Shown here: piece by piece, positions 6,901 through 35,833 of the stretch | How the letters are laid out: every line of letters starts with the position of its first letter | Position numbering within the stretch: position 1 is the stretch's first letter | Assembly: GCA_019096065.1 (NCBI GenBank) | Contig: JAGUCH010000001.1 | Coordinates: 7,378,001 to 7,442,000, forward strand | Direction of reading: 5' to 3' | DNA length: 64,000 bases | Source of the DNA: Paracyclopina nana | Lineage: Eukaryota; Arthropoda; Copepoda; Cyclopoida; Cyclopettidae | Notes under the pieces: model-generated | Told to the model about the DNA's origin: nothing | Database searches by the model: none | Seen by the model: the letters and a program-made list of their open reading frames with translations, nothing else | Program-made: the position numbers and the translations under genes

Positions 6901-9900
6901 ATTCACTTATGATACTCGATGTCCAATTTTTCCAGAAGTCGTCGATCACCTCTCGTATGTTGAGGTACAAGTTTGCGAATTTGGACTCGTTCAATGGTTT
7001 GAGCTGACTTGAGTCAAAGTTTATTCCTGCCTTCAGCAAGTCATTGACGCAGAGGATTCCTTCGATTTGGTCACTTTGAATATATTCAATTGGCCGTGAG
7101 TTTATGAGGTCAGTTATCATTACCAATGATGTCATGATCCCGTCCAGGCTGAATTCTGTGGCTTTTAAGTCTGGTAACCTTTTCTTTGCTAGGTGGACCA
7201 TTTTTTCTGCCAGACCGTTGTTTTGTGGGCTGTAAACTGGCGAGTACTCCCACCGTTCTATGCACATCGCTTGCTGGATCTCATCCTTGCTTGGGACTAG
7301 CAGCTTTTCCGCTGCGCAGAACTGTGACGCATTGTCTGATCGAACTAGTCTCGGTGTTCTATATTTGCTGCTAAACCTCTGTAGCGCCGTGATCACATGT
7401 TCCGTGGCCATGCTTTCTGTCAATTCCAGATGGATTGCATGTGTTTGTTGGCAAACTATGATCAGCATGTAATATTTGTGAATTGGGCGTCCAATCCGCA
7501 CTCTGATGGGTCCCGCGAAGTCAATGGACACCGTCTCGAATACACTCATGGATTCCAACCCCCTGTCTGGCAGAGGCGCCATGTGTTGGCTCAGGTAAGG
7601 TCTGCCTTTTGTTAGGTTACATTGTAAGCAGCTTTTGACAATCTTTTTTGTTATTTCCCGTAGCCCCTTGATTTGGAAGAACCTGAGGCACTCATTCATG
7701 GTGTCCCTTACCGAAGCGTGATTGACTTCGTGGGTGTCCTTGACGATGAGGTATGCCAGATGGTGCTTTCGTGGTATTATAATGGGGCGTTTCTGGTATG
7801 TGGAGATGGCTTGCATCCCTTCCAGCCTCGATTCCCCGCGTATGATGCCGTTGGCATCCACTTGAGCGTTAAACTTTTTAAATTCTTCCTTCAGGTGAGA
7901 ATCGCTAGTGGAAAAGAATTCTGCTTGCGCATCTTTTATTAAGTAAATAAGAGCATGCTGCCTGTCTTTGATTGTCGATCGGGACTTTTGCTTTAGCTGA
8001 AAGTCCGGCAGAATTGCTGCTCCCTTTACACCGTGTTTTTCAATGACCTTGTTGCCTAGCTTGTTCCTAGCTTCCATCAATCTATTTGTGATGCGTAGTA
8101 GGCGCCTAAGATCACTGTACCGTTTTCTTAGATAATCGTCAGTGAACAGAGGTTTCGCATTTATTGTTTTTATGAATTCCAGCGCATCCGGGCGATCCGG
8201 ATGCCAATCTGCATTCAATTTGAACAGAATTCTCAGCTTGTCAAATGACATCGAAGGAGTAAAGTTTTTTAATTTCAGGTGGCTGAACAAGCAGATCTTT
8301 GCAATGGACGTTCTTATTTCCTCGGCGTCCTCATCCGGCATCTCCTCAAATTCATCGCCCGCGTCTATTGCGTAGCTCGGGTTTTCTAGATCTGGGCCCT
8401 TGAACCATAGGTGAGACTCGGCCACAAATTCATCGAAAGAGAGTCCTCTGGTGCCTTTGTCGGCTGGATTCTTGTCTGTGGCCACATAGTGCCACTCATT
8501 GGCCCCAGTGGCCTCACGGACTACTGATACTCTGGTGGCTACGAACGGTACCAACCGGCGTTGCGTCCTTTTTATCCACCATAAGGCGCACTTGGAATCG
8601 AGGTAATAATGTATGTCACTAGGTTCAATGTTATGATCCACCTCTTTCAGGTTCTCGTTTGTGAGAGGCACTATTTGGGCCGCGCAGACCGCTCCCATTA
8701 GTTCAGCTTGGGGAATTGTTCTTCCTGACGCCGATATCAACCTCTTTTTTGCTACCATTAGGTGAGCGCGAATTTTTGTTTCACCCATGTCCTCGTAGAT
8801 CGACCTTATGTAGACCGCTACGCAGTATGCTTTTTTAGATGCGTCGCAGAAGGCATGAATTTCCCTCTTTTTGAAGTTAAGAGACAAGATATATCGTGGG
8901 AGTAGTATTTCATTTATTCTACAGCCCTCGTTAACAAACTGCTTGAATGCTAGAAGTATCGGCCTGATTCTATCATCCGTCCCTTCGTAGTCTGCAAGTT
9001 TGTCGTCCCAGCCAAGCTTGAGTGTGTCATTTAGCCCCCATACTTCTTGAGCTATTAAGCGGCCCTTTAGTGTAAATGGGGCTAGTAGATCGTGTGGGTC
9101 ATAAATTTGAGCCACCACCGATACTATTTGCCTTCTCGTGACTGTGCGTAAGCCCTCATCTGTCATTCCCTGCTTTAAAGGGTTGAACGTGATCATGTCT
9201 GTGCTAGAGTGCCATTTAATGCCCAATGCTTTGACATCCGGACTGTTAGAATTCAGCTCGAACGACGGGTGCCAGTCCTCATTGCCAATTTTTGACATGA
9301 AAGTTTTGTCTGAGCTCACCCACTTCTTGAATACCATTTTCGACTTTGCGTGCACATTTTTGACGTCATGATACACTGCAAGAGCTTCATCGGTGGTGTT
9401 GCCGCTGAAAATGATGTCATCCATGTAGAGGCAGGAGTTGAAAACATACTCCGTTATTGGATGGAGTTTGCCTTCTCTAGCTATTTCTCTCATCGTATAT
9501 AGGGCTGCGTAAGGTGATGCCACGTTCCCGAACACCCAGGAGTCAAACTGATAAGCCTGACCTCTGTGGATTAGTCTGTGGTACTTTCTGTCCTCAGGAG
9601 CTAAGTGTACATTTAGGAACATTTTCACTGCGTCAGCTATGTAGGCCATTGGTCTCATTCTGAACCTAAGCCAGATTGCCCAAATATCTCCCTGCAGTTT
9701 TTGCCCTGTTAGGACTTGCGAGTTGAGGGACACCTTTCTGCTGCCAAATGGCCTTGCTGCATCCATGCAGACTCTGACTTTTGTGGAAGCCCGTTCTAGT
9801 TTTACCACCATAACTCTCGGTATGTAAAACCCCACTAGCTTGTCCTCGTCGTCTCTGAGCAGTCTTAGTGCTCCATGAGCTACCATCTCTTCAATTGCTT

Positions 9901-12900
9901 CGTCCACTTGTTGCATAAGTTCAGGACCTAGTTTGTGTTCCTGTTTCATTTCAAATGTCATGACTTGCCAGTAATTGTTGGGCAGGTCCGGCGGGTTCGG
10001 GTAGTTCTTCCATGGCACATTCATTTCCTTGTGCCCCTTTTCGTTTGTATGTATTGTAGAACTGATGATGTCTCTGGCTCTCAACTCATCTGCAGTAAGC
10101 AGTTCTATTGGGTTTGCCAATGTGAGGCCTTGTGTATCATCATCAAAAATCTTTTTCATGATATATTTTAGTTCCGGGCATTCGGATTCCATTACTTGAT
10201 GTGTCAGTAGCGTCACAGGTTTCTTGCATTCTGCGCTTGTGTACGTCAGCGTATTACCGAAAATCGTCCTCCTTACTAGAGGGGATCCTACTTTGCCGTC
10301 TGATGTATCTCCAAAACTTTTGTGCAAGCCGGGGTAATTGATCCCCAGAAGTATTTCAACCGGTCCCTTCACTAGTTGTGGGAATTGTATTGGTTTTAAG
10401 AAATCAAATTTTTGCTTGAGCTTTTCGTAATTAGGAATCCGGATCAGCTTGTTAATTGCGTCTGAAGTGTAGGCGCTGACCATGAATTTTTCACTGTCCT
10501 CTCCCTCTGTGCTTCTAATCGTGATATTACACTTATGGCTCAGGAATTCTTGTTCCTGATTATTTATCGATGAGACCGAATATGAAACTTTCTGGCCTTG
10601 TAGGTTCAATGCCTTATGCAGTGAGGAGCTGATGAAGGTATTGCTTGACGCTTCGTCCAGCACCATATTGGTCTTTACTTGTTTGTCTCCATTGGAGATA
10701 TAAACTGGTACTACTCGGAAGCATCTTGAGTCCGACTTTTTCGGCTCTTCTACTTTTCTTTTTATATCTATCATTTGTAAGGCTACTTCGTCGGGCATCC
10801 TTGTTACGTCTGTGTTTGGGATGCCCTCGCCACCTCTAAAAAAGACTGCTGTTGCTCCAGCATTGTCGCGAGTGTGGTTTCCATAGACTTTAACTTGTCA
10901 GCTACAGCTTTGTCAGTCTTCTCCTTGTCTCTCTTTTCGAAGTATGCGTGAAGTAGTGAGTGGTGGGGATGTTGGCATCTTTTGCATTTCGCTGCTTTGC
11001 AGCTCAGGCGTCTGTGCTTGGAGTCAATGCATCGCATGCACAGTTTCTTTTGAATGCACAGATCAAACTTTTCTCTTGCTGCCATTCTAATGAATTGCTT
11101 GCACTCAGGGGTTTTGTGGGCTGCGTTGCCGCATGCTTGGCACTCAGTCACGTCCTGATTTCGAACTGCCGTTGACAGGCATGGGCCCATTGATTCTTCC
11201 TCATAATCCGAGGAAAAGTCTGACGCGGATGATTCTCCGGAAGCAGCCTCCGTTAGCAGCGTGACAGCTTTGGTTTTGGAGCTCGCCTCCTTTTTAGGTA
11301 GGTCTTTTACTCTGGATTCGAATGAAGACAGCCTGATCACTGACAGCTTCCAATCAATGAACTCTATCAGGCTTGCCACCGAGTTATCTAGTCTAGCGAG
11401 CTGAATATACTCCTCGTATTTGTGTTTTGTGCCGTCTTTCCATTGTAGGATCCACAGAATCGACGCGATGCCCAAATCTGGCTTGCATTTCTTCCGTTTG
11501 CCTTCCTCTTGGAAGTACCTCTGTATCTCTAAAATGATGGCCTTGTAGTCCAATAGAGAATCCCTTTTGTTATGATCGAGCGGGGCCATTTTTCCTAGCT
11601 TAGCAAGCAGAAAACCCTCTTTGCCCTTCTGGTCCGCGTACAAGCTGTCTAGTTTCTCTAGCGCATTTGCCAAGTTCAAGAGATTCCATGGCTTAAAGTT
11701 TTTAATTTCTATTTCAGGTTCTCCTTCGAGGCTGTCCCTGAGGAACATGAGCTTATTCGCCGGTGACATGCCCGTATTTTTGATGACTCTTATGAAGAAC
11801 CTTTCCCTGAAGTCCGGGTACTCGCCGATGTCGCCCGTGAACTTCATGCGTGGGATGTCGCTGTCCTTTGGCAACTTGTCCTTCTTTGGCTCATATATTT
11901 GGCTGAGTTGAAATGAATGCAAGTAGAGGTCTGACCAATCGTCGATCTCTTCCTTCTTAGGCTTAGTAGCTTTTTTATTCAACTCTGTATTTAATGTAAT
12001 AAATTCTTCTTCTTCCGGTTCCAGACAGTCTGGTGAACGAGGCCTTGGCCTTTGGTGTCCGTTCCTGCCTCTGCCCCTGCCCCTTCCTCGGGTTTGATGG
12101 GAGCGGATTGAAACGTTTTGTTCCCATTCTATGGGGCTGTAATCCTCTTCATCAGCACTGTAAGCCCCATTTTGTGTATTTGGGGCTGCTGTTCTTCTTC
12201 CGGAATTGGCCTCTTCGGTTCTGGGATCTGAGGAGGTCTTTCCTTTTTCGCATTTTGTGTGAGGCTGTCAATGTCTTTCAATATTTTCTCTGCCTCCCTA
12301 TAGTCTTGCTCAGCTTCTTTTAGCGATTGGTCCACCTCTTTGGCGATGAACTCAATTCTGTCTCTGTCTTCCTTGGCTAGCTTTGTTTTAGCTGTTTTTG
12401 GCCTGGCGCCGGTGTGTTTTGCCAGCTCTTTGTCGAGATCTTTGTCCCTTTTGGACAGTCCCAGCGCGGCATCTCTTTCTCTGTTTCTTTCGTCCAGCAG
12501 CTTTTGCAGGTGTGCGTGCTCGGCCTCTTCGTATTCTTTGAAGCTGGCTGGGGGTAATAGCGCTATGAACTCTTTTGTCATTGCTTCCACCTGTGCCGTG
12601 AGTTTTGTGATTTCCGTGAGCCCTTTTCTTTTCTTGGGCTGATCGGCCTCGTGCAATAGACCTCTGCATTCCTCTGCTCTTGCGAGGATGGTTTTCTTTT
12701 CGAATCCTAGCAGGGCTTTGACTTTTGCGCAGTCCAGTTTGTCTATGCCTTGCATTCCATATTCATGGATCGAAAGTTTCAAGCTCTGGTATTGGAACCT
12801 GAGTACGTCCAGCTTGATGTCTATGTCCTTGTCTATGTTAGCGGACCATTCCAGTGTTGGTGGTTTGACGGGTGATTTTCCGCCATCTGAAAGTTCTTTT

Positions 12901-20686: not shown

Positions 20687-21768
20687 ATGATGCTTTAGAC
20701 GATAATTGCCCGCTAGATGAATTATCACCTTGTTGAACAACAACATATAGTATATCATCGCTACGATTTCTTGCCGGAACGTGTGTATCTTTTTTCTGCT
20801 ACGATATGACCTCTATATACGAATGTTATATGACTCGCACCCATCCGAACGATCAATCGACTGAGTGCTTCCGTTTAGCTACTTTTTGTTAGAAATATGC
20901 TGCATTATCATATTTAATGTTTCACATATTACTTAGACAGCAATAATAAATAGCCAGTAAGGACATTGAGAGCTTCTCCTCATGTAGCTACTACGTGGCC
21001 AAAAATGACGAGTCACTACGTAGAGCGGCCAATAACTGAAATTTTGTCAGTCGTCAGCAACAATGGTGGGAAACTTTTCATGCGTACCATGAGAGGCACA
21101 AAAGCTTTGGGCCCGACCGAGAAGCGAGAAAACGTGATCGGAATGGGTTTCAAACCCAACGCATTTACCCTAAGTCCTAACCGCATCCTGCACGCGTTCG
21201 TTACTTGCTGCATTTGAGCTGGCTTTGCGACCCTGGACACATTTTTTCATCATGGCAATCAGTGTTGCAATCTTCTGAGCGGAGAACGAAGCGGAGAATG
21301 AAGAAATATAGCAATAGGAAGTCTGTAGACATTCCAGTTCACTGAGATGAAAACGGTACAATTGGAAGCAATTTATGTAGAATTACCTTTCTGTCAACTG
21401 ATGTGGAATCTATTCTTAGCCTTGTCTTAGAGCACTGAGGAGACTTAGTGTAGAAGCACGCGAAGTTCTTTTGATCCTTATTAAATCAAGGCCCCGGGTG
21501 CTTTCGGGGAGAATGTGACCATGAGAGAGGAAGTCCATTTCCAAAGATTAAAGCTGCCCCTTCCTCAAAAAGGCTGCAAATGGCACTGGAGCAGGCCAAA
21601 GTTTTGATATCGATACGGTAAAAGCCTCCTAAATAATTGAAAGGGTCTGAATGGAAAAAGAAATGGCATCAATATGTTTGACTTACTAATCGAGTGCAGA
21701 TCAAGAAGGCTTTCATCAAGAAGCCACGCGAAAAAGTTCAACCGCAAGAGAAACGAATTTCGAGGATA
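20687..21768. other. Intergenic DNA left of the large transposon
   Basis: This holds the 3' untranslated region of the C2H2 gene, with AATAATAAATA near 20941-20951 as a possible poly(A) signal, then sequence in which I recognise nothing. Confidence 0.5.
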
Positions 21769-21770
21769 TA

Positions 21771-23330
21771 ACAGCCAGTATTGTTAAAAATCAGCTAGTG
21801 GTGATACAGCCCCCCGAAAAGTGAAATCCTGTCAAGTGGTCTAGTACCTTCAGATCGATATGATTGGTGGTCTAGTTAAGGTAATTTGACCACCCGACCA
21901 CTTTTGAGTGGTCAAATCAAGCCCTTAATGAGTGGTCGCTTTTTCCAATGGGGAAAGGCCACTGGGTCCAGAGCAGCCCCATGAAAGGAATCAAAATCAA
22001 TTATCCCCCACATTTTGACACCTTGGGAGGGTAGATGTTTGCTGGGAAAGAAAAAAAAAATTTGGGAATTAATTGTCTGTCAAATGGCCAAAAAATCCCT
22101 TTTTGGTAGGGCTGGAAAATGGCAAATATCTCCCAAGACCCTGGATGGATTTTTGATTTTTTTTGTTTGTTGGAGAGATAAAGATTGGGTCTAGCACTGA
22201 GAGTTGAAAGCACGAATATATATTTCAAAATAAGCATTTAATTTGCAGCCAAAGTTTGGTAAAAATTACTATTTTAGAAAACAAGGCATACAGCCACTAT
22301 AGAGAGATCACAAAGACAATTTGATCCTGATCATGCATGGATCAAACATTTTATGACTCCCCTGGATCACTTGGTATACCCTGAGGTATACCTTCCCATG
22401 ACTTATGTGATTGGTATATTTCACACCAGTTATAAATCGCTCATGTATTATAAGACCATAGCATCCAGAAATAAGAGTTCAATGGCTTTCAGGAGCCCAA
22501 AACCCTGGATAGATTTGGTATATTTTCATTCCCCTGGCACCATTGGGACCATGAGGGGCATTCAAATTCAAAATATTTGTGGTATATTTTATACCCGTCC
22601 ACATTAGCTGAACCATATTCACTTATATACCACTGTAAGCAGCAACTGGACAGAGATCAATGGGGCCCAGAGGCCAAGACCCCGGATGGATCCTGCTTTT
22701 TTTCACTCCCCTGGCACCCTTGGGACCCGGAGGGGTTGGCCAAGCAAACACATTTTTGGTATACTGTATACCAGGCCCAAATTCAGCCAGGCTTAATATA
22801 GCCAATGTACCACTGTAAGCAGCAACTGGACAGAGATCAATGGGGCCCAGAGGCCAAGACCCCGGATGGATCCTGCTTTTTTTCACTCCCCTGGCACCCT
22901 TGGGACCCGGAGGGGTTGGCCAAGCAAAAACATTTTTGGTATACTGTATACCAGGCCCAAATTCAGCCAGGCTTAATATAGCCAATGTACCACTGTAAGC
23001 AGCAACTGGACAGAGATCAATGGGGCCCAGAGGCCAAGACCCCGGATGGATCCTGCTTTTTTTCACTCCCCTGGCACCCTTGGGACCCTGAGGGGTTGGC
23101 CAAGCAAAAACATTTTTGGTATACTGTATACCAGGCCCAAATTCAGCCAGGCTTAATATAGCCAATGTACCACTGTAAGCAGCAACTGGACAGAGATCAA
23201 TGGGGCCCAGAGGCCAAGACCCCGGATGGATCCTGCTTTTTTTCACTCCCCTGGCCCTTGGGACCCTGAGGGGTTGGCCAAGCAAAAACATATTTGGTAT
23301 ACTGTATACCAGGCCCAAATTCAGCCAGGC
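21771..23330 (+). repeat. Left terminal inverted repeat of the large transposon
   Basis: The outer roughly 860 bp is single-copy and matches the reverse complement of the right arm. It contains many TGGTC/GACCA motifs in its first 180 bp (for example around 21835-21945). The inner part is a tandem array of four 180-bp units. Palindromic GGTATAC-type motifs recur throughout, including a GGTATACC pair near 22373-22392. Confidence 0.93.
22631..23330 (+). repeat. 180-bp tandem array in the left arm, four units
   Basis: Units start at about 22631, 22811, 22991 and 23171. Each carries the near-perfect palindrome GGTATACTGTATACC (22758-22772, 22938-22952, 23118-23132, 23296-23310). The innermost unit lacks 2 bp and has CATATTTGG in place of CATTTTTGG, marks that recur in the right array. 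The 180-bp period is a multiple of three, so long repetitive frames appear here that are not genes. Confidence 0.93.
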
Positions 23331-23393
23331 TTAATCTATCTAAAGTACCACTGGTCCGATAGGAGCTGTACAATTTACATCTTTTTGGATACT

Positions 23394-23399
23394 TTTATT
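23394..23399 (-). terminator. Poly(A) signal of the transposase-like gene
   Basis: AATAAA on the minus strand, 19 nt past the stop codon, just inside the left inverted repeat. Confidence 0.65.
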
Positions 23400-23418
23400 C
23401 AAGCTATAATACATTTTT

Positions 23419-26400
23419 TCAGATCAGTGAAAGGCATGAGCTGGGGCAGTTGTCTTTGACAAATCTATAGATGGCTGTGGCCATATCAAAGCTGGTACAT
23501 TTTTTGGGGCATGGAATGGATAGGTTTTCAAGTATCTTTCTCAATGTGGCTTTCCCAACCCCAAATATTTGGGCTCGCTTGCTTTCTTGCTTGGCTTTGA
23601 AGTCTAGGGCTAATGTGCAGAGGTCAAGTCCACATGCCTACAAAAAGTAGTTGAGATTATTTATGATATTGTCTGGAATATGCTTTACTTGAAGTGGGTG
23701 CAAGATGTCCAATGTGTCAGAGCTCAAGGCTTGGATGAATTTTTGCCTTGCCACTGAATTTTCCATTGCATGCATATCATCTTGGGCTTCTTCTAATGCC
23801 TCATCAGTCACATCAAGACTTCCCTTTTTCAAGATGACCAGAAATTTGGAAAAAAGCCCTTTAATCTAAAATTAGAGTCTCAAAAATGAACTTGTGAAAT
23901 AATTTCCCAATTTACCTGAGCCTCTGTCAGCCACTCGTTAGTTGAGAATCTTGGGGATCCATTAGGTAGCTTTGCAACCCTCATTAGAGCAACAACATCC
24001 TTAGTCTTTGTTTTCTGTCCTGACATTTGGCCCTGATGAAAAATGTCATGAACAAACTGTTCTTGATCCTTGGAGAAACTGGTGTGGGCTCTCTTTTCAG
24101 GCAAAGCAAATCCTTGCTGAAAGTGTTCTTGCATGATTGAATCTTTCATTGGAAAGTCATAAGGAAACTCAAAAAGCTTCAACTCCTCCAAATGACTTCT
24201 AAAGTGCTTTTTCTGCCACTGGCTAGATCTTTCATTACCAGAGGAGAAGCCAAACTTATCAAAGTAAAGTTTCCTCAATTTAGACGATGCTGACTGCCTT
24301 GGTAATAGGATGTGACAAATCCCGCTCATCACATGCTCTTCTAAGCCCTTGTTGGTGAGAAATTGTCCATTGCATTGGCTTGTTGGGCACTGAAACAAGG
24401 CTCCATCACCATAAGTCAAAGAAGAATCTTCTTGATCATCAGCTCCTAAGTCCAATCTTTCAAGCTCTTCAACAGCACCTGAGCGCTTCAATTCCCCTCT
24501 TAGTAATTGTTTTGGAGGGTGGCAAAACTTAGCATCAATTTGAGGCCCATATTTTACGCTAGGTCCATGGGGCTGAAGAATGACACAATCATAGATTGCT
24601 GTTTGCACAACCTTGTCAATCTTGATTACTTCTCCACTCCCGATTCCACTCTGTTTGTGAACACGTAAGCCATCATGCAAAAACTCAAAGTCATTGTACA
24701 TCTTGATGCCCTTAATTTGCCTTTTCTTTGGTGAGGGTGCAGCATCTTTCACAGTTCCAGCAAATACTAATGAATTGGCAACAGGATTTGACCTAATAAA
24801 ACAGGTGTGATGGTGAAGATATTTTATTTTTACTCTCCATACCTAACAAGGGCCTCTGAGAACTCAGCTGGTGTAGTTGCCTTGTTTCCATTTTGGATGT
24901 ATTGCCAAACTTTTCTCTTCATAACAGCAGTGATCTATATAATAAAAAGAACTATAAAGTGCATTACTATAGTGGGTTTTTTAAATTATACCCCATCGGC
25001 CTTAGACTTTCCAGCTCCTGGAGTGCTAAAAATATATCGCATGATTTTCATCTGGCCAAATTGATCTCTCATTGCAAGGAGGGGCAGCAGAAAATTTTCA
25101 GAGTGATACGTTCTACAATAAAACAGTTGTAATTTATGAATTAGACTTTTAAATAGAGCATGCTACCCTGCATTGTCAGATTTGATGTAGAGCTTTTTTA
25201 TGCCAGGGTTAGCTCGAGAAAATACTTCCAGTGCTGTTTTGATCAGTGCCACATTGACACTGCTCTCCTGATTTTCAGCATTTGTCAGAACAGACACATG
25301 AGAAGTTATTTTGGTGCTCCATGTGCCATCATCATTGCAAACTTGCTGCTCGAAAACAGAAATGTGCCATGGAATACCAGATTTTCCAAACCAGTTCTTC
25401 TGAGACTCTCTGAACTCAGTAGGAATGAATTTCATTGCCCAGTCAATTGTCAACAATGCCACAGACTCATCTTGTTGACTGGCTATTAGGTCCCATGCTC
25501 TATTTTGACAGAATGACTGAATCAGATGGTGCTTGTAAAGAATGATTTTCTTGTGAGCACACTGGATTTCATATTGTTGCTCAGCAAAGCTCTCTGGGCT
25601 CATATGACCTTTCTTCAAAGCTAGCTCAAGCAACCCTTCAAACGATTGAATGACCTTGTCAAGAAGACTGCAGTAGAGGCATAGTTCTTCATGATCATAG
25701 CCACAATTTGATGCAAATGCCTCGCCTATGTCATCACTGAGAGCATGGGTGACACAGTGAGATGCAATAGGACTTGTCATTGACAAATTGAACTGAAAAT
25801 GATTCTTGATGTATGCCATCACCACGGAGATCCCTGCTGTTAGGACTTTCACTTGAGACTCTTCAATTGCATGGTGTGATAGTTGGCCAGCAATGTCAGA
25901 TAGCAAACCAAAACTGCTCATGCACTCCTCCTGAAAAAAGTACTTTTCTTAGCACAACTTGTTTGGAAAATATTAGTGCTCTTATTACATATGTTGAATT
26001 GATGCCTCTCATCATTTTGGGACTTGCTGCAGGCATTGCATTGAGGAATCGAAAAAGTGTGCTTTCACTTGGAACTTTCACACCTTGCTCAGCAAGGAAG
26101 AGGCGACACAATCTCACAACTTCAGTTTTCTGCTTGAGTCGTATAATTTTGGGTATTGTTCCCTTTGTACCAGCTTCATCTTTCACAGAAATAGTGCCAT
26201 AGGCAACATTTTGAATGATGCTGGGAGAGGTTAAAAAATCAAAGATGAGAGAAACAACCTCTGGCTCAATCCTCATTCTTTCCTTAGGAGTAGCCGCAAC
26301 CTCCATGAAGCCTCTTTGGAATCGATAATAGTGAAGCTTGGCCTTTCGATACAGATATCTTGTCAAGGGTGGGTTCCATTCTGGACCAGAGTTCAAAACA

Positions 26401-27422
26401 AACCTCATCTCGTCAAGGTCATCTTCTTGGTCACTTTGGTCATCATCAGGGTAGACATCATAGTCTCCAGATGGCAAGGTCAGAGGGTTGAATCGGGCTA
26501 GCCTAGCAAAACCATATTTTGGGACCAGAATAGAGAGAATTTGAACTCTTTCTCTTCCTGATTTAGCATAGTTAAAGGCTTCAATGATCTCCTTCAATAT
26601 AGGATCAACACTTTGTCCACCTAACCTGCTTTCAACAGCTTCTGAGTCTTTCAATGCCTCCCAGATCAGTTTGTCATTCTCTGGAAGAGTAGAAATGGCA
26701 TGTATAACTGCAGCCACACTTGCAGCCATCACACGCTTGACTTCTCTTTGGGTGGATGAGGCCAATTCATCAAAGGGCTTGCTCAACCTAAACCTGCATC
26801 GTACATGCTCATGATTTTCTTCCAGCAACTGGTTCAATGTATTGAGATGATTAGGCTCATCCCCAAACGAAGTGATGAGTGCATTTTCCTCTTCCTCATC
26901 AATCTCCATCAAATCACTTTCAGGAGCTGAGGGTAGACTCCAGCCACTACTTGTTGCCGGTAGAGAAGGAAGTGAGCTTGCACTACTCTTTGTTGGCTCA
27001 TTTTCATGTTCCATTGTTATTGGTTTGGCAATCAAAAGTTGTCTATGAAACTTGATGTAGTCTGAGTTGCAAATTAGGCCTCCAGCTGGGATGAGAATGT
27101 TAAGACACTCATAGGCTGACTGACTCATCTGCTGGCTAATAGGCTTCAATTGGTGCTTGGATGATAGGCGTCGCCCTCCATTATGATTTGGCCACATGCA
27201 GTAGAATTTAGTGTTGTATCTAACATGAAAGGCTTTTGTCAGGTTGTTCAAATGAGCCTCACAAACTTCCCAGTCCTCAGCAGCATTTTGATCTCCAAAT
27301 ATGCCACATCTTTGAAGCAAAACAAACCTGACATCTTCAGGGACTTCAGATATTGGTGAAACTTTTCCAACACATGACGACTCCATTGGAGTTCCTGAGA
27401 TTTCCCTTCCAACATGGCAGCC
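23419..27422 (-). CDS. Transposase-like protein of the large transposon, seven exons
   Basis: Exons in transcript order are 27422-25989, 25930-25167, 25112-24992, 24934-24843, 24792-23916, 23865-23689 and 23637-23419. Every GT-AG junction keeps frame, leaving about 1,216 codons from the ATG at 27386. Introns are 39-75 bp. Motifs include SHCVTHALSD, LTIDWAMKFIP, RESQKNWFGKSGIPWH, IKSDNAG followed across an intron by TYHSE, a C2HC-type finger (FQCPTSQC, then HVMSGICH) and a C-terminal MRVAKLPNGSPRF/NEWLTEAQ-IKGLFSK block. The two invariant-looking Asp (DWAMKF, SDNAG) suggest an RNase H-fold DDE/D enzyme; I could not place the third acid. From memory this architecture resembles uncharacterised proteins repeated in invertebrate genomes, but I cannot name a superfamily. 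It would cut at the inverted repeats and integrate at TA. All frames are intact. Confidence 0.85.
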
Positions 27423-27491
27423 CTAAAAACGATGGAAGAGGGTATTTTTTTTTAAATCATTCATGATCATCATTCCTCAACTTTTTCTTAC

Positions 27492-27684
27492 CGTTTGTAC
27501 CAAACCAGCTTGCTTTTGGAACATTTTGAACTTCTTTCAAGATGGCAGCCTGTTGATCATTTTTCAGCTGTAGAAAGCCTGCTCTTGCCGTAGCTGTAAT
27601 GCATTGAGCAAGCATGGATTCAAAGGATGAGTCATTCCGCTTGCTGAAAGATCTTGCATCACTGACAACACTTTTTGGACTCAT
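27492..27684 (-). CDS. Possible first exon of the transposase-like gene
   Basis: A 64-codon frame begins ATG at 27684 and ends at a good donor (CG|GTAAGA). It lies directly upstream of the main gene on the same strand. The only acceptor before the next exon (TTTTTAG at 27423-27429) gives phase 0 downstream, while this exon ends in phase 1, so a simple join runs into a stop. It could belong to a different isoform, be non-coding in part, or be separated from the main frame by a lesion. Translation may instead start at the ATG at 27386. Confidence 0.4.
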
Positions 27685-27841
27685 ATAAAGTGCAACTAAA
27701 GGATGATTTCAACTTGATCTCAATATAATTGGGAATTATCCATATTTTAGTTGTGATAGAAGGCCTAAGATTTTTTCAGCCTTTTGAGAATTGGGTTGCA
27801 ACATCTCTCAGCTCACTGATAAAATTGAAAATACCCCTCTG

Positions 27842-28876
27842 CACAGTGGGTTTATTTGCCGATTTCACGCGCACGGAAAAAAGTCGCGAAATCAACGTAG
27901 CACCTTTTTCTTATTAGCAGAGTTATCAACGGTGGTCGGAAACGACCAAAGTGGTCGTTTTTGACTTACTTTGGTCGGAAAAAAAATTGGTGGTCGGTGG
28001 TCGGAAAAGTGGTCGTTTTTGAAAATGACCAAAACAAGCTAAAAATAGGCACTTTTAGTCAAAAAAGGAGCAAAATTCCAATTCAAGCTTGCCCATTTTT
28101 CCTTTGGGAAACAATCTTTTACGTAGAAACGTAGCAAATAAGATTAATCTCAATATAAATATGAAATGAAAGCTCATTTTGATGAGAAACAGCTTCTTAC
28201 TATTTAGGCTACTTTTTGCTCAAAGAAGCGACATCAAGATAAAAGTTATCTTATAGAAATTTTCCTAAGTAACATTTTTTTACAACAGACATTGCTAAGA
28301 AGGCTTTGTAGTTGAAAAAAGGACATTTTAAGCGTAAATTGTGTGAGTTTCGGCCGTTTTTGGGTAGGTGGTCGGTAAAGTGGTCGTTTTTGAAATGGTC
28401 TGAAAAATTGTGGTCGCAAAAGTGGTCGTTTTTGGCCAAAAAGGTGGTCGGAAGCCTAAAAATCCGTTGATAACACTGCTTATTAGCGGTAAGCTAAAAA
28501 TATGCCATCCTGGCACCCGGGAGAGCAAGTAAGAGCAGCCGATTCTGGTGGATTATCAATTTATGCTATAAGCTTGACTTCCCTGACTTGGTCACTCAAT
28601 TGGAGTCGTTTGGAATCAAAAGTTATGGGAGATTCAATTTTTGCTCAAATTGTGCAAAGTTGCTGTTCTACTGAATTCGCCAAAATCAACTTTTGCCCAA
28701 AAATTATGTTTTCTTCACCAAAATTGAACCTTTATCTGTCAATAAACATTAATTTGTGCTCTTTAGGTAGCCTAGAAGTCCTACAAATTAGAAGCTGAAA
28801 ATGGGTGCTAAAATCGGAAATCTGCGATTTAACATAATTTCCCGTGCGCGTAAAATCGGCTTTTAAACCCACTGTG
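27842..28876. mobile_element. Transib-like non-autonomous element between the two transposon genes
   Basis: The ends are inverted repeats of about 50 bp (CACAGTGGGTTTA on the left; its complement, TAAACCCACTGTG-like, on the right, plus a shared CCGATTTYACGCGCACGG core), flanked by the 5-bp direct repeat CTCTG (27837-27841 and 28877-28881). CACAGTG-type termini and 5-bp duplications are characteristic of Transib, the superfamily related to RAG1. No transposase is encoded. It is interrupted by a hAT-type element at 27918-28478. Confidence 0.78.
27918..28478. mobile_element. hAT-type element nested in the Transib-like element
   Basis: Its ends are CAGAGTTATCAACGG and the complement of CAGTGTTATCAACGG, flanked by an 8-bp duplication CTTATTAG (27910-27917 and 28479-28486). 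The interior has many GTGGTCG/TGGTCGTTTTT motifs near both ends. It is 561 bp and encodes nothing. Confidence 0.88.
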
Positions 28877-29147
28877 CTCTGGAGAAATTTCCCAACTGCC
28901 CTTTGCACATTTTTTAGCTCTTTCTTCAAATCCATTCATGCTACCAAAAACCTCAAATATCTCCAACTCACTTCAACTTGATTATACAATTTCTAACTAT
29001 CTGACACGAGCACCAGGCTGAGGAGCTTCATTGATTTTTTTTGTATAAGATAAGGTGTGTTGCAAAAAGTGTCCAATTTCTGTCGCACAGAGCTTAGCAC
29101 CAAATACGTCAGTTGAATCATAACTGATTGAAAGAAAGGAGTGCATC

Positions 29148-32100
29148 ATGGAGATGCACTTCATATTTCTGTTTTCCTTCGTGGAATTAGTGATTGGCGA
29201 TCGAAGTGTATGGCATCAACCAGATCTCATGAAGATAGAAGTTGAAGCTTTCAATTGCAAAGATCCATCAACAAAGGTAAGAGGAAATATATGAATAATT
29301 TGATGATAGAGGAAAAACGCGTCGACGCACCCTTTGCTTTGTAGTAAAACTTGGCTGCAAGGTAAAAATTACTTTGAGGCATCTCACGACCCAAAAACTG
29401 GCCACTTTCCATGAGTTGGGTCCCTATGGCACCAAAAGTGGGCCTAGCTCAAATTTTTTACTCTTGGGCAAATATGGCTAGAGCCAAAAAACGCGTCGAC
29501 GCACGCATTGTGGTAAAACTTGGCTGCAAGGTAAAAATTACTTTGAGGCATCTCATGACCCAAAAACTGGCCACTTTCCATGAGTTGGGTCCCTATGGCA
29601 CCAAAAGTGGGCCTAGCTCAAATTTTTTACTCTTGGGCAAATATGGCTAGAGCCAAAAAACGCGTCGATGCACGCATTGTGGTAAAACTTGGCTGCAAGG
29701 TAAAAATTACTTTGAGGCATCTCATGACCCAAAAACTGGCTACTTTCCATGAGTTGGGTCCCTATGGCACCAAAAGTGGGCCTAGCTCAAATTTTTTACT
29801 CTTGGGCAAATATGGCTAGAGCCAAAAAACGCGTCGACGCACGCATTGTGGTAAAACTTGGCTGCAAGGTAAAAATTACTTTGAGGCATCTCATGACCCA
29901 AAAACTATTTGCAGGTTAAAAAATGGTGGATTTTAGATACACAAAATTTCTTTTTATCTGCTTTAATGGTGCAAGAAGTAAAAAAGAGAAGGTATTGGAA
30001 TTTTTTTTTGATCTGCAGAAATTCAATCCTGTAGTCGATCCTGTAAAAAAATCTCAGCACACACAAAACAAATTACTACTATAAATAAGGATGTCTTGCA
30101 AACTACACTTCAGCAATCTACTTATTTTTGGCGGATTTTGCCCAAAGGTCAATGGCGGCAGAGCTACCAGATATTGAGAAACACCTCATATTTCAAAGGG
30201 ATATGGTTCGAAGTCGATTTTGAATTAAAAAAATATAAATCAAAAGTTTGTCTGCTAGCTTAGCTACAATGATTGAGTCTGATTTTAAACAAAGGAGTTG
30301 TATTGATGAATTTTATAAAATGGTGACAAGTCAGGACTAGGAAACCAAAACAGCATGCTCATCATGCTATTGTTGCTCGTTATGTGTAAGGCATTTGGTT
30401 ATTGTGTTTGATATACTTTCAGGTTTGGAATGTTGATGTTTCCCAAGTAGAAGAGTGCAAAAGCCCTGACTATGATGAATCAGCCACCAAGCACACCGTT
30501 CAGGTCATCAGCCAAGCTGAAATCTTCCCTCATGTTTTTCAGAGCTGCAGAGTAACAAGACTTAGGTGAGTTTTTTTGTACACATTTAGCTTAGTTACAG
30601 AATCATTGAGCAGTAATTGAAAGTTAGAAGCTAAAAAGGCCACCTGTGTGGTCAAATTTGTAAAGCCAAAATTAAAGACATTTGCAACTCTACTTAAATA
30701 TATTTTTTAGAGCAAAGAAGGAGAGCCTTAATATATACTTAACTTCAAGGATTCAACATTTTTTGGGAAATAAAAGATGATAGGAAGCATCTCCTCACAA
30801 TCATGATAACAATAAACTATTTATGCTATGGAATATTATAGAAAGCATGTCTATGAGAATGGGCATTTTCCAGGATTGGCTTTCACTGTGGGATGCATCA
30901 TCACATCAGTGGATTGGAAATTCTTGAATGGGGCCCAGTTGAGCAAACAGTTGGCTACTGTAAAGAGCTTCACAGGAGGCGAATCTTCAAACCTATTCCA
31001 GGGGATTCACTTACTTATGACTTGAAAGATGCAGTCACAAGGTTTCGAGTTCCTATGCGTGGGTATGTCAACAATGGAAAATGCTTTGAGAGTGGTTGCT
31101 GGGAGCAAGATGGCAAGACTTTTGACGACTTTATTGGTATGCACTATCTTCATAAAGGTTCACTTTTAACAAAAACATGATTTTAGTTGTGGACTACTAT
31201 GAAGTTGCCCTGGAAACATTCACTGGTGTGGAGTCTAAGGGACGTTTTAAACTTCCCAACACAAGAGTGACTGCCCGAGCTCAAGGTTTTGATGAGGAGC
31301 TAGGTACCTATTATGCCGAAGTGTCTAGGGTAAGAATTTTGAAAAGCAATGCAACTTTCTTTACAAAATACCACTTAGACTTGCGAATCTGGATATCAAG
31401 AGCAGTACTTTGGAGCTTCTGTTGGACCAAAAAGGCTAACTGATGGAGCCATCATCATTACTGCAAACAATGAGTCCATGCAGTATGCAGCAGTTGAACT
31501 GAGAAAAAAGATGACTCTTTGTGGACACACAGTGTATGAGACATCTTTCCCTGGCATTTGGTACAACTTCATTGATGCCTACTCAGAGAGAATTGAGCTT
31601 GATCTGTTGAATCCACTGAATGTTCGCCTAAATACAGCAGTTGGGATGCTCTCTTCTTATGTCCATGAAGATGTCATGAGGAAAATGACCAAAGTCTATG
31701 AGGATACTTTGCACAAGCATTGTGAAAGCACAAGATCCTGGATTTTGGTAAGCTCAATTTTGTTCGCAATAGTGATTCCATATGACTGTATTCAACCATT
31801 TGCAGGGAACACTTGCTGTTGTGAATGGGGATCCTTCCAACTCATATCTTGCCTTTGGCCCTGGATACCTCATCAAGCCTCGAGGCTCCCTTCTTGAAGT
31901 GGCTCAATGTGCACCTGCAACTGGAGTCAGAATTCGACGCACAAATGGATGCTATGAGTCTCTTCCGGTGTGGTTCAATGGAGAACAGCTTTTTCGGGAT
32001 CCCAAAACTAACATTCTTCTGGACACTTCTGCTTTGTGTGACTGTGACCTAGATTACAAAGTCCACAGGATTGGTCAGCTCTATGTGGCTCAAAGGCCAC

Positions 32101-32807
32101 AAATCCAGATTGAAAATGCCACAGTTGAGCAGCTCAGCCCAGCAAACTACAATGCCAACAACAAGACAGTTCTGAATCACCAGTTCCAATCCCTTGGAAC
32201 ATTGGCAGGCACTGCTATGGACCAATTTACGAATGCTCTCCTTTTTGCTTTCACCAAGAAAAATGCTCTAGCCAGGATGTCCAATGAAATGAATGTTGGA
32301 ATGGGGATTTCAAGAGATGCAAATCTCATCAATGATGTGTACCAAGTCTACCAAATGCTCCAAGGCACATTTGAAAGTGTTGTCCAAGCACTGGTGAAGT
32401 ATTCTGGAATGGTCTGTCTTTGTATTTTGGCCTTTGTGATTGCTCTGATCTTGATCACTTGGTTATTGGCAATTGCAAAATCTATCGTGGTGAATGGAGT
32501 CCGACACAGTGTAACTGCAGTTGTTTGTTGCTCTGTTGTTTTCATGGTGTGGGACATTCTTGTTGTAATTGCAAGGGCAGTTGGACTAATTGGCCCCAAA
32601 ACTCAAGGTCCCATTGACATTGAAGCCCAAAAAGAGGAGCAAAAAGAAGTGATAACCCATCCTCCAAGCCCAAAACAAAAAGCTCGAATTGGTGGTGAAA
32701 CTCAAAAAGAAGAGCAAAAAAACGAAGTGTCCCCACCTCCTAGCCCGAAGAAGAAATCATCTGATGACAAATACTGGTTTGAGATGTTCAAACTGGCCAA
32801 AGATTGA
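29148..32807 (+). CDS. Envelope-like membrane glycoprotein of the large transposon, six exons
   Basis: Exons are 29148-29276, 30423-30565, 30874-31136, 31187-31329, 31379-31747 and 31806-32807. Phases (0, 2, 1, 0, 0) match throughout, giving 682 residues. There is a hydrophobic signal peptide, a long Cys-rich ectodomain with N-glycosylation sequons (NNES, NATV, NKTV) and an RIRR motif that may be a furin-like site. A strong membrane segment (CLCILAFVIALILITWLLAIA) is followed by a second hydrophobic stretch and a charged tail with two PPSPK repeats. This layout resembles glycoproteins of negative-strand RNA viruses or of env-bearing retroelements. The exact class is unassigned. A membrane-fusion role is inference from layout only. 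The frame has no stops or shifts. Confidence 0.82.
29313..29908 (+). repeat. 169-bp minisatellite in intron 1 of the glycoprotein gene
   Basis: About three and a half units start at each ACGCGTCGACGCAC (29317, 29491, 29660, 29829). Later units are almost identical, while the first differs slightly. Repeated identical 79-codon frames inside are a by-product of the period. Confidence 0.92.
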
Positions 32808-32865
32808 AGAAGAAAGCTGTCAAGAACAATTATAATTCTCATTAATTTTTGTTACCATGAGAAGA

Positions 32866-32871
32866 AATAAA
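32866..32871 (+). terminator. Poly(A) signal of the glycoprotein gene
   Basis: AATAAA 59 bp after the stop, just before the right inverted repeat. Confidence 0.6.
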
Positions 32872-32898
32872 AATATATATAAGAATATATGTGAGAGA

Positions 32899-34641
32899 TT
32901 GGCCTGGATGAATTTGGGCCTGGTATACAGTATACCAAATATGTTTTTGCTTGGCCAACCCCTCCGGGTCCCAAGGGTGCCAGGGGAGTGAAAAAAAGCA
33001 GGATACATCCGGAGTCTTGGCCTCTGGGCCCCATTGATCTCTGTCCAGTTGCTGCTTACAGTGGTACATTGGCTATATTAAGCCTGGCTGAATTTGGGCC
33101 TGGTATACAGTATACCAAATATGTTTTTGCTTGGCCAACCCCTCAGGGTCCCAAGGGCCAGGGGAGTGAAAAAAAGCAGGATCCATCCGGGGTCTTGGCC
33201 TCTGGGCCCCATTGATCTCTGTCCAGTTGCTGCTTACAGTGGTACATTGGCTATATTAAGCCTGGCTGAATTTGGGCCTGGTATACAGTATACCAAAAAT
33301 GTTTTTGCTTGGCCAACCCCTCAGGGTCCCAAGGGTGCCAGGGGAGTGAAAAAAAGCAGGATCCATCCGGGGTCTTGGCCTCTGGGCCCCATTGATCTCT
33401 GTCCAGTTGCTGCTTACAGTGGTACATTGGCTATATTAAGCCTGGCTGAATTTGGGCCTGGTATACAGTATACCAAAAATGTTTTTGCTTGGCCAACCCC
33501 TCCGGGTCCCAAGGGTGCCAGGGGAGTGAAAAAAAGCAGGATCCATCCGGGGTCTTGGCCTCTGGGCCCCATTGATCTCTGTCCAGTTGCTGCTTACAGT
33601 GGTACATTGGCTATATTAAGCCTGGCTGAATTTGGGCCTGGTATACAGTATACCAAAAATGTTTTTGCTTGGCCAACCCCTCCGGGTCCCAAGGGTGCCA
33701 GGGGAGTGAAAAAAAGCAGGATCCATCCGGGGTCTTGGCCTCTGGGCCCCATTGATCTCTGTCCAGTTGCTGCTTACAGTGGTATATAAGTGAATATGGT
33801 TCAGCTAATGTGGACGGGTATAAAATATACCACAAATATTTTGAATTTGAATGCCCCTCATGGTCCCAATGGTGCCAGGGGAATGAAAATATACCAAATC
33901 TATCCAGGGTTTTGGGCTCCTGAAAGCCATTGAACTCTTATTTCTGGATGCTATGGTCTTATAATACATGAGCGATTTATAACTGGTGTGAAATATACCA
34001 ATCACATAAGTCATGGGAAGGTATACCTCAGGGTATACCAAGTGATCCAGGGGAGTCATAAAATGTTTGATCCATGCATGATCAGGATCAAATTGTCTTT
34101 GTGATCTCTCTATAGTGGCTGTATGCCTTGTTTTCTAAAATAGTAATTTTTACCAAACTTTGGCTGCAAATTAAATGCTTATTTTGAAATATATATTCGT
34201 GCTTTCAACTCTCAGTGCTAGACCCAATCTTTATCTCTCCAACAAACAAAAAAAATCAAAAATCCATCCAGGGTCTTGGGAGATATTTGCCATTTTCCAG
34301 CCCTACCAAAAAGGGATTTTTTGGCCATTTGACAGACAATTAATTCCCAAATTTTTTTTTTCTTTCCCAGCAAACATCTACCCTCCCAAGGTGTCAAAAT
34401 GTGGGGGATAATTGATTTTGATTCCTTTCATGGGGCTGCTCTGGACCCAGTGGCCTTTCCCCATTGGAAAAAGCGACCACTCATTAAGGGCTTGATTTGA
34501 CCACTCAAAAGTGGTCGGGTGGTCAAATTACCTTAACTAGACCACCAATCATATCGATCTGAAGGTACTAGACCACTTGACAGGATTTCACTTTTCGGGG
34601 GGCTGTATCACCACTAGCTGATTTTTAACAATACTGGCTGT
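32899..34641 (-). repeat. Right terminal inverted repeat of the large transposon
   Basis: This is the reverse complement of the left arm, with five 180-bp units (about 32899-33781) rather than four. The unit boundaries and private variants line up in order with the left units, and the extra unit is innermost. Palindromes GGTATACAGTATACC lie at 32922-32936, 33102-33116, 33280-33294, 33460-33474 and 33640-33654. Confidence 0.93.
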
Positions 34642-34643
34642 TA

Positions 34644-35833
34644 AGTGAAAAAAATGGCCCTTTGGTGGAAGGTGCACAAACTGCAGTCTCTGCAGCTTTT
34701 TTGCCAGGCAACATCATTAATGAGGAGCTAGGCAAACAGGCGTCGAGAAAATGGAAACGTTCGCCACTCGCTGGAAATCTGTCCATTTTTTATCTAGCCT
34801 TCATACATCCTCCAACAAATGGGCAAGAGCTCAAAGCCCGCACCATTGCACTCCTGAAGCACTCCCATGAGAGGGTCGTGGAATGATGGTGGAGAGACCT
34901 AGAAAAAGCACCTTGTAATAACATTACGTCGGACGCAACGCAGCTGTAACAAAAGCAAATAGCCATCGAGTTACATGTATAGAACAGTAAAATGGCCTTT
35001 TAAGAGTATCGCAGATCAGTCTAGCCAGCAACATGCAATTTCTTGATCTCTCATGGTAGCTTTAACGTCTATTTCCTCTTTTCATTAGATCTAGATTGCA
35101 GTGCAGTGCTTTGTGGGGGGGCATTTCTCATTTCGTTTTTCCATCCTCCTCTGCGTGCCCAGCGTGTGCGTGTCCTGGTAAGTTGTCATGAGCCTACGTC
35201 AGCTCTGCACCGCTGAGGCCGCTTTCTCCACCTCGATCTCGGCCTCTCTCCCTGCTTCTCATGACGGGCCTCAGAAGCTGGCTGAGAAAGCTTCTTTTTC
35301 TGGGTGACGGGGCCACAGTCAGAAATTCCCTCGCAAACGTTGTAAATGCTTCACAAGTTTGAAAAGATGGCTACCCTAGCTGTTCACGTTTGGAATGTCC
35401 TTGTTAGTTTTGAGTCGAGTTGTTTGCTCATGGCTGAGCATACTTTTCAGATGGGGTGGCTGCTAGATCGAAGGTACTAGGCAAGAGGACATGGGGAATT
35501 CAGGATAGAGGCGAAATAGAGAAAGCCAAGAAACTTGGGTGACTAGATGCTAGCTTTTACCGAAATCAGGACGGCTTTACATTCAAGTTGATGTGCAGCC
35601 CATTTCAAATAAAGCTTCTCCTCCACTCGTGAGCAAGGATTTGCGGTCTCTTTCTGACGTTGCACGTCTGTCTGCCTTCCTCGTTCCACTTCTAATTATA
35701 TATATCAAGGATATACCGATTGAGTCATCAAAACCGGATAAGCGCTATGGCGGCTTATGGCCAATTTGGCCGGTTTTATTTTGTGCGATAGTTGCGCAAA
35801 CATTAGGAGGGCGGAGCTTAACCTTAGAATAGA
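34644..35833. other. Intergenic DNA right of the large transposon
   Basis: No gene is recognised. A moderately GC-rich patch lies near 35160-35290, and a 74-codon frame begins at 34662 without domain or splice support. Confidence 0.5.

Follow-up and report, generated by a model that had tools for sequence, protein, structure and literature searches.

A TTAA-targeting DNA transposon of the copepod Paracyclopina nana that pairs a transposase-like gene with a chuvirus-type fusion glycoprotein gene

Envelope capture is known in retroelements and in large DNA elements. Polintons/Mavericks and adintoviruses, a virus-like form of mobile DNA that in some cases includes fusion proteins, carry polymerase, integrase, and capsid genes. 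In medaka, Teratorn is a piggyBac transposon fused with a herpesvirus (PMC5601938, PMC10175614). Chuvirus glycoproteins have been reported in BEL/Pao retrotransposons or beside long terminal repeat (LTR) elements (PMC7642597, PMC10084718), and an unclassified transposon of Bemisia tabaci contains a Jingchuvirales glycoprotein within complete element boundaries (PMC10084718). Here, we describe a DNA transposon, designated copy A, in a 64,000-nucleotide stretch of the genome of the copepod Paracyclopina nana (contig JAGUCH010000001.1; G000:C1:7378001-7442000, hereafter the window), which carries a gene that behaves as a transposase gene and a gene for a chuvirus-type fusion glycoprotein. The genome searched comprises 92 Mb in 10 contigs (C1, C2, and so on), and relatives of A within it are named B, C, D, and T.

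Copy A is similar to Teratorn in being a DNA transposon with both a viral envelope glycoprotein and a transposase, whereas Teratorn is 180 kb long and has DNA-virus genes for polymerase, capsid, and packaging (PMC5601938, PMC10175614), and A has 12.9 kb and a single glycoprotein of RNA-virus type. Among the 17 open reading frames (ORFs) of at least 100 aa in A and in the joined transposase, no Pfam match to a polymerase, capsid, or reverse transcriptase (RT) was detected, which agrees with a preliminary description of the locus and distinguishes A from Polintons/Mavericks and adintoviruses. An ORF of the arm repeat gave weak Pfam rows below the cut-off (RelB_leu_zip, 5e-5; Terpene_syn_C_2, 4.5e-4), which were taken as chance matches to repeated sequence. 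The mosquito BEL/Pao retrotransposon Anakin likewise has a captured chuvirus-type glycoprotein (PMC7642597); however, Anakin is an LTR element with RT, and A differs from it, as from other envelope-bearing LTR elements such as errantivirus, in having inverted rather than direct arms and no RT match. The Bemisia tabaci element could be a relative of A, a likeness drawn from one descriptive sentence that gives neither structure nor transposase (PMC10084718). In horseshoe crabs, transposase domains near chuvirus-like insertions have been interpreted as integration aids (PMC12282059); this report and the Bemisia tabaci element hint at similar pairs. No cut-and-paste DNA transposon with a chuvirus-type or other RNA-virus glycoprotein was found among the titles and abstract openings listed in the literature searched, which mostly did not include subscription papers and bioRxiv preprints, and the terms "DNA transposon" and "transposase" are absent from PMC7642597 and PMC10084718. 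Copy A would extend envelope capture to simple cut-and-paste transposons.

Copy A proper spans positions 21772-34640 of the window, from CAG to CTG, and measures 12.87 kb. Its inverted arms, at 21769-23353 and 33059-34643, each measure 1585 nt, are 100% complementary, and lie 9705 nt apart; within the element, the left arm (21772-23353, + strand) starts CAGCCAGTATTG and the right arm (33059-34640, - strand) is its complement. On its inner side, each arm is built of tandem 180-bp units, with 4.0 copies on the left (22628-23353) and 4.9 on the right (32902-33784). A perfect palindrome, GGTATACTGTATACC, occurs once per unit, at 22758, 22938, 23118, and 23296 and at the mirror sites. Between the arms, two genes are directed outward from the center, the transposase on the - strand and the glycoprotein on the + strand, and their exons are stop-free and separated by GT-AG introns; a probable further 5′ transposase exon at approximately 27684-27494 has an uncertain junction with the next. 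The preliminary description was therefore accurate with respect to size, inverted ends, near-identical arms, and two outward, spliced, open genes. An assembly artifact of one place, which that description had considered for the arms, can be dismissed because two further loci (C2:16928657-16941576 and C2:73515) carry identical termini and a divergent element, copy C, has arms of its own of 2238 bp. Genome-wide, the outer arm of A occurs at 100% identity in five places, namely both ends of A, both ends of B, and one end of T. An older fragment (C1:6346564-6347600) holds two arm pieces, 87% and 90% identical, and an end reading TTAA-CAGCCAG, followed by other sequence. An 18-base end pattern with at most two mismatches occurs 15 times in the genome (five exact), and the 38 matches of a 15-base end pattern to viral contigs were taken as chance. 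Inverted repeats, a fixed target, several genomic copies, and a gene-less derivative identify the element as a cut-and-paste DNA transposon.

The right gene consists of six + strand exons between 29148 and 32807 with GT-AG introns, which sum to 2049 nt (exons read singly). Exon 1 (29148-29276) encodes a hydrophobic N-terminus that by eye resembles a signal peptide, and the following intron contains a 169-bp tandem array of 3.5 copies (29313-29906). Exons 2 (30423-30565) and 4 (31187-31329) alternate with exons that match, colinearly, the Pfam family PF24664 (Monjiviricetes_fusion, viral fusion glycoprotein; profile length 653, curated cut-off 27 bits). Exon 3 (30874-31136; profile positions 79-168; E 8.9e-5, 21.1 bits) and exon 5 (31379-31747; positions 248-344; E 8.4e-6, 24.5 bits) fall under the cut-off, and exon 6 (31806-32807; positions 345-622; E 1.4e-15, 56.8 bits) exceeds it. 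Besides a charged tail, exon 6 encodes two hydrophobic segments, at windows 213-231 and 248-266 of its ORF, which constitute a C-terminal membrane anchor. In copy C, two of the three glycoprotein exons scanned match PF24664 (E 2.9e-6 and 1.2e-12), and the third, of 98 aa, does not. A comparison of exon 6 with PDB sequences returned four chance-level rows only (E 0.55-0.86). Judged from the profile matches, the right gene is a chuvirus-type, i.e., RNA-virus-type, fusion glycoprotein, and the viral design previously attributed to it is thereby corroborated.

Proteins of the same Pfam family are also present elsewhere in this genome. A genome search with exon 6 listed 119 matches, most of them at approximately 30% identity. 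One such locus, L104 (C1:4383500-4393400), has RT (6e-20), RNase H, and integrase domains together with a PF24664 envelope (6e-76), and we read these domains as a Gypsy-type retroelement; no LTRs were seen in the 9.9 kb fetched. The long envelope frames of six loci (15 were looked at, the rest having short frames) are 94-99% alike. Although L104 and A share an envelope of PF24664, that of L104 is an intronless frame of 831 aa beside RT, RNase H, and integrase, and the two proteins are 23% identical in the exon-6 alignment. Because of this low identity, the glycoprotein of A is not a recent copy of the retroelement envelopes, and its source may be either a chuvirus or a retroelement. Viral contigs searched with transposase and glycoprotein exons, both singly and aligned, yielded no confirmed relative.

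The association of the two genes was assessed across the six transposase-related loci found in the genome: A, B, C, T, a fragment in D, and a lone piece at C3:6773328 (one further row, with E 0.57, was left out of the count). At four of the six (A, B, C, and D), the glycoprotein lies beside the transposase; the two loci where it does not, T and the lone piece, are both truncated. Copy T (C2:73515-76418) is 99.9-100% identical to A until it is cut off after 2.9 kb; it retains the left arm along with the 3′ portion of the transposase gene (99%) and stops before the glycoprotein gene. The lone piece (C3:6773328-6773588) comprises 83 aa, 43% identical to a transposase exon, and none of the 119 exon-6 matches is listed near it. 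No solo glycoprotein of this subfamily was found in the genome. The preliminary description had allowed that other copies might carry the transposase only, the glycoprotein having been trapped once, and this distribution does not bear that out.

Copy C (C2:9462618-9476009) has 13.4 kb, arms at 98.5% identity, 171-bp tandem units, the same divergent layout as A, and open exons in both genes. The introns of A lie by eye at matching places in C (for the glycoprotein, in the printed part of C, where C has one extra intron). Viruses of the chuvirus type are not known to have introns. Over three exons per gene, A and C are identical at 470 of 943 aa in the transposase (50%) and at 223 of 493 aa in the glycoprotein (45%). 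The proportion of synonymous differences (pS) is 0.78 and 0.79, respectively, i.e., saturated, and that of nonsynonymous differences (pN) is 0.35 and 0.38. Because synonymous sites are saturated at such values of pN, the coding sequences indicate that both genes have been under purifying selection since A and C split. Because the introns are shared, capture is placed before that split, and the comparison indicates that the pairing is not one trapping event and is older than the separation of two lineages that are approximately 50% diverged. Of the two possibilities raised previously, that the genes are under selection or newly arrived, the former stands and the latter does not. Copy D is a third, decayed lineage with the same layout: its glycoprotein exons 2 to 6 are present in part with stops inside, and a transposase remnant lies in the same orientation. 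A motif match in D (C1:15498099) was rejected as an element end, as it falls in the glycoprotein region.

Copy B (C2:16928657-16941576) is 99% identical to A by aligned bases; the two are separated by 135 substitutions and 112 indels, and 73 of the indels are single-base. Nearly half of the short indels (47 of 96) lie near homopolymers, against a baseline of 24%. Because indels are almost as numerous as substitutions and their homopolymer share is high, uncorrected sequence error in B is suggested, although decay may also account for it, and "decayed" was dropped as a safe label for this copy.

The target site can be defined from these copies and from gene-less derivatives. The right target of A (34641-34644) reads TTAA and the left (21768-21771) reads ATAA, where relatives have TTAA. 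TTAA is found at six of seven ends of large copies (A-right, B-left, B-right, T-left, C-left, and C-right, the left end of A being the exception), at the end of the old fragment at C1:6347600, and at every one of the 38 ends fetched from arm copies of the C type, each adjoining CAG. Elements start with CAG in A, B, C, and T and at all 38 fetched ends. The TA duplication proposed in the preliminary description was accordingly discarded as the full target. The sequence outside TTAA varies among copies, which are thus separate insertions. The outer 582 bp of the C arm gave 40 scored matches at 96-100% identity among 102 candidates; apart from the two of C itself, 32 form 16 +/- pairs of 2443-5525 bp and six stand alone in the list, so the C lineage counts no fewer than 16 paired-arm derivatives. 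Of these, a single pair was read whole (C9:681415-683875); it consists of arms only, with no element-protein match at E <= 0.01.

The left gene behaves as a transposase gene: the element that contains it is mobile, and a divergent relative of that element has given rise to 16 or more paired-arm derivatives, the one read whole being gene-less; this assignment, mostly from behavior and layout, retains the transposase-like protein of the preliminary description without a family to which it belongs. Seven - strand exons between 27422 and 23419, separated by GT-AG introns, join into an uninterrupted reading frame of 1227 residues. The first of these (25989-27422) encodes a region that is by eye Cys/His-rich and N-terminal, the second (25167-25930) contains the acidic residues of DWAMK and SDNAG, conserved in the A-C comparison, and the third (24992-25112) ends with PGAGKSKADG, which includes a candidate third acidic residue. 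They are followed by exons at 24843-24934, at 23916-24792 with a CC-HC finger-like segment (by eye), at 23689-23865, and at 23419-23637, the last. Outside the joined residues, a further 5′ exon is likely near 27684-27494 (27494-27684, - strand), for a total of approximately 1.2-1.3 thousand aa. The candidate catalytic exon is 51% identical between A and C, with DWAMK and SDNA unchanged, and PGAGKSKAD in the next exon is common to both. Unnamed invertebrate proteins may have similar motifs.

Acidic residues after the first and fourth strands are the usual order of the RNase H fold. In a low-confidence structure model, a strand (157-161) is followed by two strands (188-198 and 204-214), a helix (221-240), and another strand (246-250), and by residue count the conserved aspartates 163 and 252 come after the first and fourth predicted strands (mean predicted local distance difference test, pLDDT, 45.6). 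In the favored reading, the protein is a large, unclassified transposase, probably of RNase H-fold (DDD/E) type. When scanned singly, three transposase exons of A gave no meaningful Pfam match (one chance-level row, E 0.094), two exons of C gave none, and no PDB sequence matched the transposase exon searched. Copy A is similar to piggyBac in its TTAA target and perhaps in three aspartates, but no family of the Pfam copy used, that of piggyBac included, matched the transposase residues scanned. Kolobok also targets TTAA, has accessory second proteins in several lineages, and includes one copy with TTAA/ATAA flanks (PMC9587614, PMC6004289). Kolobok elements, however, end with 5′-RR and their transposases have C/DxxH and usually a THAP domain (PMC9587614, PMC6004289), whereas A ends with CAG and has no THAP match in 1111 of the 1227 residues, the 5′ exon not being in the scan. 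By eye, no C/DxxH was seen near the candidate acidic residues, the third of which is uncertain.

Candidate binding sites for the transposase are found close to the ends. Six GTGGTC/GACCAC motifs lie at 21836-21937 and six at the mirror positions 34475-34576, i.e., six per terminal 300 bp of A, and C has three at each end; a derivative of the C lineage (L144) keeps three sites at both ends. Ten GTGGTC motifs occupy the intergenic center between the two gene starts (27932-28449). Elsewhere within A there is one, and the 51.1 kb of the window outside A contain 10. At the flank rate, the Poisson chance per end amounts to 5e-11 in A and 3e-5 in C, values that are flattering as the motif was picked after looking. 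These repeats may serve as binding sites of the transposase.

We are highly confident of the anatomy of the element and of the co-retention of its two genes. As an explanation of the whole, we hold it somewhat more likely than not that A is a two-gene autonomous cut-and-paste TTAA transposon with a selected captured fusogen that plays a role in its spread. The transposase would bind the subterminal GTGGTC repeats and cut and paste at TTAA. The common ancestor of three or more element lineages in this genome would have acquired a chuvirus-type glycoprotein a single time, and selection has maintained it since. The glycoprotein would reach the cell surface and fuse membranes, whereby transposase-DNA complexes, element RNA, or vesicles might pass from cell to cell, either from soma to germline or from host to host, and such transfer would offset element loss within the lineage. 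The reported passage of an errantivirus from somatic gonadal cells to oocytes (PMC10541861) offers a model for this role. The persistence of a divergent relative with both genes intact provides a hint that the viral protein aids the spread of the element; our confidence in that role by itself falls somewhat short of even. More tentative still is the proposal of a capsid-free "infectious" cut-and-paste transposon, for which a transposase and a captured RNA-virus fusogen would suffice between cells or hosts. The passage of naked DNA transposons between species is an old open question, and with a fusogen retained until synonymous sites became saturated, one answer can be put to a direct test. If true, a capsid-free transposon would be to DNA elements what enveloped retrotransposons are to retroelements, and transposons could be transferred horizontally by a direct route.

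Several observations weigh against this explanation. The joined transposase has no Pfam family in 1111 of 1227 residues at E <= 10 (5′ exon not in the scan), and its structure model is poor (mean pLDDT 45.6; 2 sequences, two intron-coded inserts included). A fold look-up with that model placed no DDE transposase among the best 50 matches listed; the matches are helical and involve mainly residues 1-144, mostly outside the catalytic part, two rows being serine integrases. The glycoprotein model is poorer (mean pLDDT 43.2; 3 sequences). The central GTGGTC cluster of A is absent from C, whose interior has five motifs. In copy B, the relative nearest to A, neither gene bears a clear mark of selection, the substitutions being near neutral expectation (transposase, 9 synonymous, 14 nonsynonymous, and 3 stop; four glycoprotein exons, 9 synonymous, 28 nonsynonymous, and 2 stop), but the indel load makes the B sequence doubtful, and nothing is concluded from it. 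Finally, arm-only derivatives have multiplied without a glycoprotein of their own, so movement within the genome does not require the protein in cis.

Among other explanations, the best placed is that the glycoprotein acts as a blocker, either by receptor occupancy or by interference with entry or assembly of chuviruses or envelope-bearing retroelements, such that carriers are favored and the element pays rent. This genome contains the PF24664-envelope retroelement family (L104, with the six loci 94-99% alike and the 119 exon-6 matches listed), solo chuvirus glycoproteins of mosquitoes have been proposed by Dezordi et al. to act in this way (PMC7642597), and purifying selection fits equally. 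However, a protective gene would be expected to be kept without the transposon, and all glycoproteins of the subfamily found (A, B, C, and D) adjoin a transposase or its remnant. We consider the blocker unlikely and prefer to infer help in spread over antiviral benefit.

Much less probable is a passenger, a viral gene caught once by chance and carried without function. Transposons often carry cargo, and the arm-only derivatives move without the glycoprotein; nevertheless, saturated synonymous sites at a pN of 0.38 over 493 codons, open frames in A and C, and shared introns largely refute it. Slightly less credible again is a degraded provirus or an element of Polinton, adintovirus, or Teratorn type that has lost capsid and polymerase. 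The viral glycoprotein, the long arms, and a TTAA target as in the piggyBac-based Teratorn would suit such an origin, but in copy C the same two genes recur over 13.4 kb (its other ORFs lie outside the scan), none of the 17 ORFs of A matches a polymerase, capsid, or RT, and the glycoprotein is of RNA-virus type. A host gene trapped once between two arms, which splicing like that of host genes might suggest, is the least plausible of all and is refuted in this genome by the same pair in three lineages and by the lack of any solo subfamily relative found.

Outside copy A, positions 6632-13574 of the window (- strand) contain ORFs of 1421, 487, and 481 aa that by eye resemble pol and gag from an LTR element of BEL/Pao type. 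In contig C1, a CCTGGC satellite, and not telomere repeats, makes up most of the first 1000 bases. TTAGG telomeres are of the arthropod type, and contig C2 begins with degenerate CCTAA repeats that correspond to them.

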